Source: Candidatus Saccharimonadota bacterium (lineage in GTDB: Bacteria > Patescibacteriota > Saccharimonadia > Saccharimonadales > Saccharimonadaceae). Taken from it: a stretch of 53,293 nucleotides of DNA. The stretch spans positions 1 through 53,293 of the forward strand of contig JAFWLR010000008.1 of the NCBI GenBank assembly GCA_017510985.1, given 5' to 3'. The notes under the pieces are model-generated. The model was not told where the DNA came from. It did not search any database and worked only from the letters and a program-made list of their open reading frames with translations. Positions 453-32,263 of the stretch are shown here, one piece after another; the first letter of the stretch is position 1; each line of letters opens with the position of its first letter. A program made the translations under genes and the position numbers.

Positions 453-616
453 GCGGTGCCGACTTCGCAAAAGGCGTATACAAAATCGGCACCGCAGGTT
501 CCATAATCCAACGCGATGAAATCTCAAAGAAATCAACGACATTGACATCCTGTGGTGCCGATTCTATCGTCGATTACTTTGGATTTCGCTTTTCTAATGT
601 GCGTTGGATTATGGAA
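453..616 (-). promoter_or_regulatory. Structured leader L1 with crossed inverted repeats (candidate pseudoknot)
   Basis: Bases 484-498 pair with 549-563 (14 of 15, the odd one a possible G-U). Bases 499-514 pair perfectly with 601-616 (16 bp). The two helices interlock in the order A-B-A'-B'. A third partner, 453-462, can pair perfectly with 486-495 and competes with A'. Weaker pairing of 513-529 with 578-590 extends the B helix. The element lies just upstream of the surface gene starting at 417 and would be in its 5' leader. The same design recurs at 29614-29770 and 32017-32154. The RNA-level role is inferred. Confidence 0.7.
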
Positions 617-28089: not shown

Positions 28090-29574
28090 CTAGTTGTTGG
28101 CGATGCAGCGGGCTGAAAGTCCGACACTACGAGCTATGCCGTTATATGGATAGACATCGTTTGGCCCGAAGCTGATGACGGGTGCAAACACGAGGCTGTT
28201 ATCGAGCCTCGTGGAGGTCCAGAAAAGGCCGTTTGCGCCTAGATTAGCTTGGCTGTTGTTGGGGTAGTTTCCGGAAAGGGGAGTAGAAAGTGCGACCCTA
28301 AAATCATCGGCACTACCGGAATAGGCATTATAAAGAATTCCGTATTCATTACCGTTATAGCCACCGGTAGGCATGCGCCAATTAGCCGGGCAAATATTGT
28401 ATTGGGCGTTTCCTGTACTGCTTTCGGAATTATAACAATAGGTTCCAGCGCTAGCAGCACAAAAATTATAATAAACACCTATTTTCCCGGAGCCAGTACC
28501 ATAGCTAGTAGTCGTATCATTTTTGTAGGCAGCATTAATCTTGGCTTCAACGTAAGTAGCAACTCCACTAGTTACCCCTTTTGGCAACGTCCAAGCCTCT
28601 GCAATATTAGTGTCTTGTGGAGTGAGATTTATAGAATTATCATTACTACCTAACCTTAAATTATCCTTCATCCAACATCTCTCATCAGCTAGTCTACCTA
28701 TCATATAGATTTCATTGTCTCTAGTATCTATGACATAAATATCAGAGTCTTGTTCTACGGCATTACAGATAGCAGGAGTCATGTCTTGGATTTTATAGTA
28801 ACCATTTAACATTTCTATATGGTTATTAGGATCTGCTGCAGCATTCTCAAAGGCTTGGTAGATAGTAACTGGTACTGCTTTGCCTACAACGGTAAAGTTA
28901 ACTGTATTAGTATACTCCCCAGCTGCTTGGGTATTAGAGGCTTTAGCTCCTATTTTAAACTTAATAGTATTAGTACCAATAGCCGTAGTATCTACTAGCT
29001 TAATACCAGTACCAGAATATAAGGGTAGACCATTATAACCACTAGCTGTACTGCCAGTATTACCACTAATCCAATTAGCACCAGCATCTACTGAATAAGA
29101 ATAGCCCCAATAGTTATCATCAAAGTTAGATAGATTAGCTTTATTAGTATTTAGATTAGTGAACTTATTAGTATTATCATTACTATTACCATCTAGTTTT
29201 AAGTCTGTAGAAGCTACGCTACTAGTACCTACTGTACTACTAAGGACATAACCAGTACTATTATTACTTAGAACTGTGACATTAATTACATTACTATCAC
29301 TACTACTACCTGGTGCTAATTCATCTATAATTAAGTCACCAGAAACAGAAACGCTAATGGAGGGATTGATGGTGAAGTTAACTCCGGCAGAGCTGCTGTA
29401 TTCTAGGGCATTGACATTGTTGCAACTGATAATACTAATTAAACCTAATGTGTATGCGATAGGTAATTTAAATAATACTTTTTGGGACACACTCAAGGCC
29501 GTTCGGCCAAGCTTACGGTTCCAAAAAGTATTATTTAAATTACTTGGTCTGCAGTTTATTGTTTTTGCCTTCAT
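28090..29574 (-). CDS. Secreted FISUMP-domain surface protein
   Basis: The ATG at 29574 opens an abnormal N-terminus. MKAKTI matches the paralogue at 1-417, but about 29 extra residues (NCRPSNLNNTFWNRKLGR, then TALSVSQKVLFKLP) from palindrome P2 precede the hydrophobic signal helix IAYTLGLISIIS. The mature N-terminal domain (LEYSSSAGVNFTINPSIS onward) is Ser/Thr/Asn-rich. Residues of about 260-494 are a FISUMP-type domain: DNEIYMIGRLADERCWMKDN, YNICPANWRMPTGG and GLFWTSTR, ending SVGLSARC. FISUMP proteins are surface proteins of unclear activity. The leader at 29614-29770 precedes it. Whether export tolerates the insertion is unknown. Confidence 0.85.
   Translation of the reverse strand: MKAKTINCRPSNLNNTFWNRKLGRTALSVSQKVLFKLPIAYTLGLISIISCNNVNALEYSSSAGVNFTINPSISVSVSGDLIIDELAPGSSSDSNVINVTVLSNNSTGYVLSSTVGTSSVASTDLKLDGNSNDNTNKFTNLNTNKANLSNFDDNYWGYSYSVDAGANWISGNTGSTASGYNGLPLYSGTGIKLVDTTAIGTNTIKFKIGAKASNTQAAGEYTNTVNFTVVGKAVPVTIYQAFENAAADPNNHIEMLNGYYKIQDMTPAICNAVEQDSDIYVIDTRDNEIYMIGRLADERCWMKDNLRLGSNDNSINLTPQDTNIAEAWTLPKGVTSGVATYVEAKINAAYKNDTTTSYGTGSGKIGVYYNFCAASAGTYCYNSESSTGNAQYNICPANWRMPTGGYNGNEYGILYNAYSGSADDFRVALSTPLSGNYPNNSQANLGANGLFWTSTRLDNSLVFAPVISFGPNDVYPYNGIARSVGLSARCIANN
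29462..29544. repeat. Palindromic element P2 inserted in a signal-peptide coding region
   Basis: Arms 29462-29485 and 29521-29544 are complementary at 23 of 24 positions. The core 29485-29522 matches P1: GGACACACTCAAGG, then CCGTTCG, then GCCAAGCTTACGGTTCC. The central stem is GGCC/GGCC here and GGGC/GCCC in P1, a pairing-preserving change. The insertion is in frame with the surface protein. Confidence 0.85.
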
Positions 29575-29613
29575 GTTTGCCTCACTTTGCCTTTAATTAC
29601 CTTTATTTTCCCA

Positions 29614-29770
29614 GCGGTGCCATTTTGTCATGAAAGGCGTACACTAAAAATGGCACCGCAAGGGGTGTAACTATCCGACAATCGCGCCGAGTGGCTCGAT
29701 GACAGACACCTTGCGATGCCATTATAGCCATCGAGTATTTACTCAGCGTTTATAATTATCGAATAGTTAC
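29614..29770 (-). promoter_or_regulatory. Structured leader L2 with crossed inverted repeats
   Basis: The A strand 29649-29668 pairs with A' 29706-29723 (AATGGCACCGCAA region). B 29667-29678 pairs with B' 29759-29770 (11 of 12, the odd one a possible G-U). C 29614-29626 pairs perfectly with 29647-29659. CTCGATG (29695-29701) and CATCGAG (29729-29735) extend the B helix. The order and the competing C pairing match L1, but stem sequences differ (GGTGCCATT for GGTGCCGATT). It ends about 40 bases before the ATG at 29574. Confidence 0.7.
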
Positions 29771-29859
29771 ATTACTATCATAACATAGTTTTTGTGATTT
29801 TGCGGTTGTTTTTGGTTTTTGTGCAACAGTTTTGAAATATTTGTGGTGTTGTAGGGTGG

Positions 29860-31968
29860 TTAGGAGCTGGCGACACAACGGATTTGCCATCCTTGGCCTA
29901 TTACGGATAGGGCGTCTGTGTCCATTTTGCCTTTTGGACCCGTATAACGGTAGACATAGATGTCTTGCGGGTTGTAAGAATTTGAAGTCCAGAAATACCA
30001 ATTTTCTGATCTGGTGGAAGAAGTTGAATGCCACCACCATCCGGAGTAGACAAAGTTGTTGGGAAAATGACTAAAACGGCTTGCCATAGTGTCGGCGGTG
30101 GGATTGGTGGACGAACTCATCTGTGTGTTTAGCCCGCCCATTGAAGCACTAAGATTAGGGTAACTGTAGGTATTGTATCTAGACCTAGATGGTAATTGCC
30201 AGTTGGATGGGCAAATTGAAGTTGTGGTGGCGCTATCACTACTAGCTAAAACAGTGGTGGCGCTTGCAGCTGCCCAAGAATATACATTGCCATAACCATA
30301 CCATTGTGAATAATTATTGTTGTCATTGTAACTTGCTATAAGTGAAATACCAGAAGAGTTGGTGCCACCAATATTAGTGTTGTTGGTATTAATTTGGGGG
30401 AGAGTGGCGGTAGTAAGGTTCAACTCGCTACCATAGACGTCGTTATATGTGTTGGATTGCCAAGCATCGTCCACGCTGTTAGGTAGTTTAGTAAATACTC
30501 CACCTGTGCCTTGAGAGCCGTTAGCCATATCTGTTGCTGAAACTGAACCATCTATCCGTAAGTTTTCCAACATCCAGCAGTTTCCGTCGCTTAATCTAGC
30601 TACCGCATAAACGTCATTATCGCGTTCGTCCCTTAGGGCGATAAAAGAGTCTGCTGTGAGGGTAGTTTGATTTTCGGTATGGAAGGAAGAGGTACTACTA
30701 TCATAAACAATTTTAGCGAGTTCGTTTTCGCAAATTGACGAAGAGAAATTTTGCATAGTATAGGCAGAGTTCTTTTCTAGCCAAACTGCATAAAGTTTTA
30801 ACCCTTCGGAAGATAGAGCTGGAAAAGTAATATCTTCCATGGGTCCATAAATAGTGTCTATACCGATAATGGGGTTAGAAACTGTGCTCCAACCCAAGAA
30901 TCCATAGTTTGGACGTTTATAATTATACGCTATTAGTCTAGCGGAGATGGTGCTAGTGCCCACTGATTGATTATCCATGACTCCAGCCGTAGCGCCATTT
31001 CCATCATAACAGATGTTACCTCTAGGGCAAGTAGCCCATTGAGCATATAAAGTAATGGTATTATTTGGACCTACCGTGGTGAGGTTTGTGACTTGATCTT
31101 GGTCGGAATAAACAGTACCGGTGCCATCTTGATTAGTAGTCCAACCATTAAATTGGAGTCCTGTGGGCGGAGCGTAGGTATTAGCATCGAGGGTTGTAGC
31201 AATACCCTCTGCTATTCTTTGGTCTGGCATCGCGTTGCCGGAACCACCATTAGCGTTGAAATGAACGACATAACTTAGACAATTAATGTCCGCAGTTAGA
31301 TAGTAAGTAATTTTACCAGTATTACTACTATCATACATAGTGTAAGTACCCATAGGTAATGTAGCTGGTACCGATGCTCCATAGTAGACTGGGATAGTAT
31401 CACCACCACTAGCACTAGCAGTCTGTTTACTATAGATTTCCACCGTACTATTAGTTAAACCAATGAAGTTACCAGTAGCAGTACTATTAGTAGTACTATA
31501 ACCCCATGTACCTAGATTGCTAGTACCGGTAACAGGTGCTGGACTGGCTTTAGTACCAGTAGAAGCACTGATTTTATTACTACTAGTATTATCACCATTT
31601 TGATATAATGTAGCATCACTGGGGCCGCTGATAGATACTGTATAGCCTAAAGGACAAGTAGAACTCACCGTGAGATTATCTGTTACCACGTTAGCTCCAT
31701 TACCAGCTGGTGAGACATTTAGATTGACGCTGCCACCCACACTAATACTAGCGGAATAGGTGGAGGCGAAAGTATTGCTATAAGTTATAAATGAAATAAA
31801 CATTGTAATAAAGAATAAGATAATAAGCCCTGTGAAAGTGCCAGTAGGATTACTCATACACTTGCCCTCCATAGTCTGGATGCTGTCTCTGACATCCCGA
31901 CCGGGCTGCCTACTGACACTTTCACTAGGCTTATTGAATTTATTTGCGAGTTGTGTGACGAGAGACAT
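29860..31968 (-). CDS. Secreted surface protein with InlB-type repeats and FISUMP domain
   Basis: ATG 31968 follows GGAGGT by four bases. An alternative, ATG 31857, also has a good GGAGGG site and starts right at the signal peptide (TGLIILFFITMFISFITYSN). The upstream choice is preferred because it keeps the leader L3 at the distance seen for L1 and L2. The mature protein has a Ser/Thr-rich domain (about 70-235), then two InlB/Listeria-Bacteroides-type repeats (HFNANGGSGNAMPDQ, FNGWTTNQDGTG, LYAQW and a second ending LYAVW). A C-terminal FISUMP domain follows (DNDVYAVARLSDGNCWMLEN, SICPSNWQLPSRS, YFWTSNSY, ending GWQIRC). Probably a large adhesin-like protein. Confidence 0.85.
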   Translation of the reverse strand: MSLVTQLANKFNKPSESVSRQPGRDVRDSIQTMEGKCMSNPTGTFTGLIILFFITMFISFITYSNTFASTYSASISVGGSVNLNVSPAGNGANVVTDNLTVSSTCPLGYTVSISGPSDATLYQNGDNTSSNKISASTGTKASPAPVTGTSNLGTWGYSTTNSTATGNFIGLTNSTVEIYSKQTASASGGDTIPVYYGASVPATLPMGTYTMYDSSNTGKITYYLTADINCLSYVVHFNANGGSGNAMPDQRIAEGIATTLDANTYAPPTGLQFNGWTTNQDGTGTVYSDQDQVTNLTTVGPNNTITLYAQWATCPRGNICYDGNGATAGVMDNQSVGTSTISARLIAYNYKRPNYGFLGWSTVSNPIIGIDTIYGPMEDITFPALSSEGLKLYAVWLEKNSAYTMQNFSSSICENELAKIVYDSSTSSFHTENQTTLTADSFIALRDERDNDVYAVARLSDGNCWMLENLRIDGSVSATDMANGSQGTGGVFTKLPNSVDDAWQSNTYNDVYGSELNLTTATLPQINTNNTNIGGTNSSGISLIASYNDNNNYSQWYGYGNVYSWAAASATTVLASSDSATTTSICPSNWQLPSRSRYNTYSYPNLSASMGGLNTQMSSSTNPTADTMASRFSHFPNNFVYSGWWWHSTSSTRSENWYFWTSNSYNPQDIYVYRYTGPKGKMDTDALSVIGQGWQIRCVASS

Positions 31969-32016
31969 ATAGACCTCCGAATTAATGTTGTATTGCCAAC
32001 TCCTACTAGTTATACA

Positions 32017-32154
32017 AAATCGGCACCGGTAGGTTTCTGAATCCAACGTACTTGGTTGATCGCAAAATCAATCAAGCGTAGTCGGTCCTACTGGTGCCGA
32101 TTTCACGTTTGATGTAATTCTGCGATTTTGTTTAAAGTACGTCGGATTCAGAAA
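32017..32154 (-). promoter_or_regulatory. Structured leader L3 with crossed inverted repeats
   Basis: A 32017-32033 pairs with A' 32087-32103 (16 of 17, the odd one a possible G-U). B 32034-32053 pairs with B' 32135-32154 (19 of 20, the odd one again a possible G-U). A and B abut directly, as in L1. AATCAATCAAGCG and CGTTTGATGTAATT can extend the B helix. The C strand of L1 and L2 is not clear here. It lies upstream of the surface gene starting at 31968. Confidence 0.7.
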
Positions 32155-32263
32155 ATTTGTTGTAGTTACATTATATATGTTTTTTGATTTTTATGCAAAT
32201 ATTTTGTGCCAACGTTTGGGAGTGGGGTGGTGATTTATATAACAGATATGATATAATAAGGAG

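Follow-up and report, generated by a model that had tools for sequence, protein, structure and literature searches.

A predicted bistable leader RNA upstream of surface genes in Saccharibacteria

Introduction

The trp and erm leaders, known as domino attenuators, work through successive pairings that exclude one another and so determine the exposure of a terminator or a start region. The surface proteins of Saccharibacteria are their likely contact with host cells, and to our knowledge regulation in this group is almost unstudied. A 5' pseudoknot is required for repZ initiation in the IncI plasmids (PMC9977716). In Saccharibacteria, riboswitches are mentioned only as tools in a 2024 perspective (PMC11665869), and no description of a leader such as the one analysed here, or of FISUMP genes in these bacteria, was found in the literature.

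The sequence under study (hereafter the window) is the forward strand of contig JAFWLR010000008.1, positions 1-53,293 (53,293 nt), from assembly GCA_017510985.1 of a Candidatus Saccharimonadota gut bacterium of the Saccharimonadaceae. A first-pass annotation had marked three elements in it, L1 (453-616), L2 (29614-29770) and L3 (32017-32154), whose crossed repeats are part of a larger RNA family.

Results

Three leaders and their arms

The crossed inverted repeats of the first-pass annotation, in the order A-B-A'-B' with A abutting B, are present in all three elements, with plus-strand matches at 484-498/549-563 and 499-514/601-616 in L1, at 29649-29666/29706-29723 and 29666-29682/29755-29771 in L2, and at 32017-32033/32087-32103 and 32034-32053/32135-32154 in L3. 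A strict seed search of the window for crossed abutting repeats recovered L1 and L3, with a mean of 0.13 per shuffle in 60 dinucleotide shuffles, which were used as the null since reversal preserves inverted repeats and is therefore unsuitable; L2 was missed because of G.U pairs within its arms. A third arm, A2, also complementary to A', was found in L1 (450-465) and L2 (29614-29626). The spans first reported had covered this arm, the consequence that A' has two possible partners being left undrawn. The arms are renamed here accordingly, the former A, A', B and B' becoming A', A1, B' and B, so that the RNA, read from the minus strand, has the order B - upper hairpin with A1 at its apex - B' - A' - K - A2 - Shine-Dalgarno (SD) - ATG.

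In L1, which lies downstream of an extended -10 element TGCTAAAAT (630-635), B (601-616) forms the 5' strand of the basal stem and is complementary to 499-514 at 16/16 positions, while A1 (549-565), at the apex of the B hairpin, has 93% complementarity with 484-498. B' (499-514) and the abutting A' (480-498) were located by the repeat search, the latter also by sequence reading, and are followed by the loop K ATACGCCTTTTGCG (466-479), complementary to 427-433, by A2 (448-465), the competing partner of A' as delimited by inverted repeat and covariation, and by K' AAAGGCGGAGG (423-433), which overlaps the SD and was placed by K complementarity and folding. L2 has a -10 element TATGAT (29777-29782), B (29754-29771), A1 (29706-29723), B' (29666-29683), A' (29646-29665), loop K AGTGTACGCCTTTCATGAC (29627-29645), with CTTTCATG pairing with CATGAAGG at the start codon, A2 (29610-29626) and K' CATGAAGGC over the start codon (29567-29575). 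L3 has a -10 element TATAAT (32170-32175), B (32135-32154; 95% complementary to 32034-32053), A1 (32087-32106; 94% with 32017-32033), B' (32034-32053), A' (32011-32033) and a short A2-like segment, AGTAGG (32002-32007), which on sequence reading pairs with CCTAC of A'; such a segment is also found in a sibling of L3 on contig C6 of the host genome (locus L199, CCTC/GAGG). All of these features lie on the minus strand.

Linked surface genes

Each leader had been described as standing before a FISUMP-type gene. This holds by sequence for L2 and L3, and the L1 gene (1-417, minus strand), which encodes an MKAK signal peptide, is cut by the contig end. The L2 gene (28090-29574, minus strand; 494 aa) matches TIGR02145 (1.7e-06) and PF09603 (5.9e-06); with the gene alone these matches fall short of the curated cut-off, and they pass it when neighbouring stretches are included. 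The L3 gene, read from an SD-supported ATG (29860-31968, minus strand), matches TIGR02145 (2.2e-11) and Flg_new (9.7e-09). Across the host genome, every FISUMP match with its 5' end on the contig has a leader, the four without one being cut by contig ends, and leaders precede surface genes wherever the gene could be checked.

A second type of long hairpin, with a stem of ~20-24 bp, occurs in the window at 29466-29540 and 31815-31945 and also at loci L002, L014, L004, L015, L017 and L131, lying either within the first codons of several of these surface genes, in frame, or in the interval from A2 to the SD. Several copies have related cores, none matches Rfam, and the type may represent a mobile hairpin or a structured RNA of some other kind.

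Size and distribution of the family

The covariance model and search of relatives proposed in the first-pass annotation yielded homologues, in which covariation supports the helices. A model of the A'-K-A2 part (R1) found 13 places in the host genome and matches in 16 of 100 genomes of the host's genus. Searching the host genome at the DNA level added five matches, L3 itself among them, and two further MSLV-type copies were found by pattern (C6:22552 and C2:21223). With L3, which has no full A2 and is counted in addition to the R1 places, and the two pattern copies, the partial host genome of 455 kb holds at least 16 leaders, a frequency that would be unusual for a structured leader. In ~20 Saccharibacteria genomes, mostly of ruminant-gut origin, a parser identified 120 unique elements, and a degenerate pattern run over 85k species gave 39 loci, of which 37 belong to Saccharibacteria, mostly metagenome-assembled genomes named after goat, sheep or cattle gut; the other two, together with one viral contig, have no leader architecture around them and were set aside as chance matches. 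A broader model (R2) gave no match outside the host's genus in 246 genomes of the family and 380 of the phylum. In three leaderless relatives (G046, G032 and G001), the same architecture with other sequence was not found in the regions compared, outside which some gene starts may lie.

In one genome (G056), about ten copies (L112, L115-L124) share an identical A'-K-A2 and a near-identical 5' gene segment and differ in their B stems, which points to gene conversion or to a 3' leader half that has spread recently. Genome G072, which has almost no other copies, carries a single leader-like copy (C5:26860, L028), with its nearest open frame starting far downstream, which is possibly a remnant. Many copies in G005, G076 and G085 lie within 75-250 bases of a contig end, a position that would follow if assemblies break at these leaders and gene starts.

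Covariation and the nature of the element

The B stems are entirely different between copies and keep their complementarity. When partners were swapped within genomes (107 elements), B:B' scored 39.5 for cognate and 17.6 for swapped arms, A1:A' 37.4 against 34.6 (z 9.3) and A':A2 36.7 against 34.9 (z 7.0), and the control pairing A1:A2 was null in the same test. A1 and A2 alike covary with A' position by position, with compensatory changes at several positions; for A':A2, double changes occur in 8/20 pairs, and the covariation score was reached by 0/500 shuffles. The earlier observation that stem sequences change while pairing is kept is thus borne out by partner swaps and by covariation in homologues.

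Mismatches had also been described as possible G-U pairs. Indeed, G.U outnumbers A.C by far in all three helices (88/33 in B:B', 115/20 in A1:A' and 78/14 in A':A2) under a scoring symmetric for both, in copies first gathered by G.U-tolerant scoring and with a kinship between copies that makes p-values optimistic. It is therefore the sense-strand RNA, and not the DNA, that is selected. Inverted repeats at a multi-copy gene family and near-identical 5' gene segments recurring in one genome might recall a cruciform or a recombination site serving surface-gene variation at the DNA level, a reading that the strand-specific excess rules against and that the fixed position behind a promoter also opposes, leaving it extremely improbable.

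Two partners for one arm

The covariation defines a long 5' hairpin made of B, an irregular upper stem and B', with A' following B' nearly without a gap. The pseudoknot consists of B:B' plus the pairing of the apical loop, A1:A', and nearly all copies have in A2 a third arm, a rival of A1 for pairing with A'. The covariation supports both A1:A', the pseudoknot, and A':A2, a simple hairpin, as predicted mutually exclusive states. The pseudoknot first proposed is hence real as a crossed pairing and incomplete as a description, being one of the two. A1 sits at the hairpin apex (relative position 0.57+-0.03) and exceeds its surroundings in openness in 111/120 copies. Predicted duplex energies are similar, -27.5 kcal/mol for A1:A' and -26.3 kcal/mol for A':A2, and the two states differ in total energy by -1.3+-5.3 kcal/mol when no pseudoknot penalty is applied, pseudoknot energies being approximate only. 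Facing the same G, a U in A1 corresponds to a C in A2 in 70/105 cases, which makes for a systematic difference between the two competitors.

Among the copies of one genome, the cores of A1, A' and A2 are nearly invariant and B is free. Such a pattern would be in keeping with joint control of all surface genes by an RNA or protein that acts in trans on the conserved A1 loop at the apex, the role of the cis pairings being limited to shaping this target. The three-way pairing constraint predicts the same conservation, however, and no free-standing A-like RNA stood out among those inspected of 34 pattern matches in the host genome, so that a trans-acting ligand of this kind appears unlikely. Across members, conservation is limited to the A arms and a class-specific K, the B arms and upper hairpin varying freely. 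A mini-ORF in A1 (AUG-GCA-CCG-UAA) was considered and rejected, its start-like and stop-like triplets being unassociated (Fisher p 0.84) and not under selection.

A subclass linked to genes with an MSL(V/I) start (L3 at 32011-32106, L199 and L200) has a short A2, CCUAC/GUAGG or CCUC/GAGG, placed inside a K:K' hairpin (UUGUAU/AUACAA, AUUAGUU/AACUAAU) that adjoins the SD. On sequence, this arrangement is consistent with the logic of the leader in a reduced form.

Position behind a promoter-like sequence

A -10-like hexamer (score >=5, a preceding TG adding half a point) was found upstream of B in 58/58 copies first examined, 4-6 nt before B in 45/58 and with a match 10-15 nt before B in 9/58. 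From its position, the 5' end is predicted at B or from a few to ~10 nt upstream, and not downstream of the element, where it would have told against the first-pass reading. The element lies between the promoter-like sequence and the start codon of the linked gene class, as does a cis-regulatory leader.

With the -10 element at 4-6 nt in 45/58 copies, the 5' nucleotide is predicted to lie in or very close to a paired stretch, and the long hairpin has a mean energy of -51 kcal/mol. Both would suit a leader that mainly stabilizes the mRNA by burying the 5' end in B:B' stacked on the A helix. Protection of this kind needs neither two competing partners for A' nor a cognate K, and the 9/58 copies with the more distant -10 match do not favour it; as the main function of the leader it is judged improbable.

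Loop K and the translation start

K is complementary to the SD or start region of its own gene, as CGCCUUU/AAAGGCG in L1 and CUUUCAUG/CAUGAAGG in L2, and in relatives as GUAUGACCUU/AAGGUCAUAC, AUGACCC/GGGUCAU, UACCCCGUUUA/UAAACAGGGUA (one mismatch) and GCAUGAUC/GAUCAUGC. Over 37 distinct K, the cognate complementarity was 16.05 compared with 13.56+-0.47 (p<5e-5), and a reversed-K control over the same 37 was null, with a weak excess at most for the reverse-complement (p 0.04) and complement (p 0.08) controls. Within genomes the effect was weak (p 0.04 for all copies, 0.18 with one copy per K), and a clade with GTATACGCCTTTTCATATATTAC before ATGCGG genes has little K complementarity. Statistically, the complementarity of K to the start is established as good but not universal.

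In a folding test on 88 copies, covering A' to +21 with A' either free or blocked, blocking A' was predicted to close the start region in 74/88 (unpaired 0.63 to 0.49) and to raise K:start pairs from 0.4 to 5.1, compared with 3.3 for a non-cognate, swapped K, in a nested model that cannot show K:K' forming atop A':A2.

A run of exactly five U follows A' in 106/120 copies and, with the A-rich A1 and the GC-rich stem before it, brings to mind a transcription attenuator in which A1:A' and UUUUU would be a pseudoknotted intrinsic terminator and A':A2 the read-through form. This U run is short, though, and is base-paired in either state, and the polymerase has already left it behind when A2 is synthesized, too late for the usual antiterminator. 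No terminator-like site was called on the leader strand at L1 or L2 in a scan restricted to short loops, and the complementarity of K to the start region would be left unexplained. There is accordingly little probability that the leader acts as an attenuator.

Discussion

The evidence favours, with moderate confidence, a leader of surface-gene mRNAs that is bistable, acts in cis and carries a switch at the start region. Transcription would begin at arm B or a few nucleotides upstream, and B, the upper stem and B' would fold into the long 5' hairpin that bears A1 at the apex and is followed by A'. With A' paired to A2, K would be held in the hairpin loop and the ribosome-binding and start region left free (ON); with A' paired to A1, A2 and K would be released and K would pair with the SD or start region (OFF). 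Since A' emerges before A2, A1:A' would be able to form first during transcription. We infer that the leader may serve as a folding timer or sense a factor that targets the exposed A1 loop at the apex, either of which would shift the balance between the states. Several observations count against the switch: L3 and its siblings have a short A2 only, the K effect is weak within genomes and slight in one clade, and the five-U run would also fit a terminator-like role. The unrelated stems of the different copies are natural compensatory mutants, which makes the switch model testable by a simple reporter.

Since the A1, A' and A2 cores are nearly identical in all leaders of a cell, pairing in trans may also occur. 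The free A1 or A2 of one transcript might then flip the switch of another and join 16-26 or more surface genes in one RNA network, a speculative extension with a low probability. If true, such a network would coordinate the surface proteins displayed by the epibiont, or make them mutually exclusive.

The suggestion that the element is a regulatory RNA common to surface genes is supported, as a predicted function, by covariation, the strand test, the position of the promoter and gene linkage. One RNA class with a covarying pseudoknot precedes practically every member of a large surface-gene family. The element had been matched to no known riboswitch, and this agrees with a search of the window against Rfam 15, in which only tRNAs exceeded the gathering threshold, and with permissive Rfam searches of the leader loci, which gave nothing credible.

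Like the translational riboswitches in Rfam, the leader is a structured 5' element with a sequestering helix at the start region; unlike them, and unlike metabolite riboswitches in general, its members share no conserved unpaired aptamer core, nor does it match Rfam. The repZ/repBA leaders of the IncI and IncB plasmids offer a closer parallel, in that the loop of a 5' stem-loop pairs with a downstream segment near the ribosome site, as the A1 apex does here with A'. In those leaders, by contrast, it is the pseudoknot that activates, and its disruption comes from an antisense RNA, a translated leader peptide and a cis-encoded antisense RNA being features of that system, whereas the saccharibacterial leader has a competing third arm in cis, A2, and a K that would cover the start region, and forms a chromosomal, multi-copy family; no Rfam family links the two. 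With the domino attenuators the leader shares successive segments whose pairings are mutually exclusive, and it differs from them in that no leader peptide was found to drive the switching and that, of its alternative pairings, the first is a pseudoknot involving an apical loop. By analogy, the leader would work like the domino attenuators and resembles the repZ leaders, the tests made placing it in neither group, and its sequence characteristics suggest a new, previously undescribed RNA class of a known working type.
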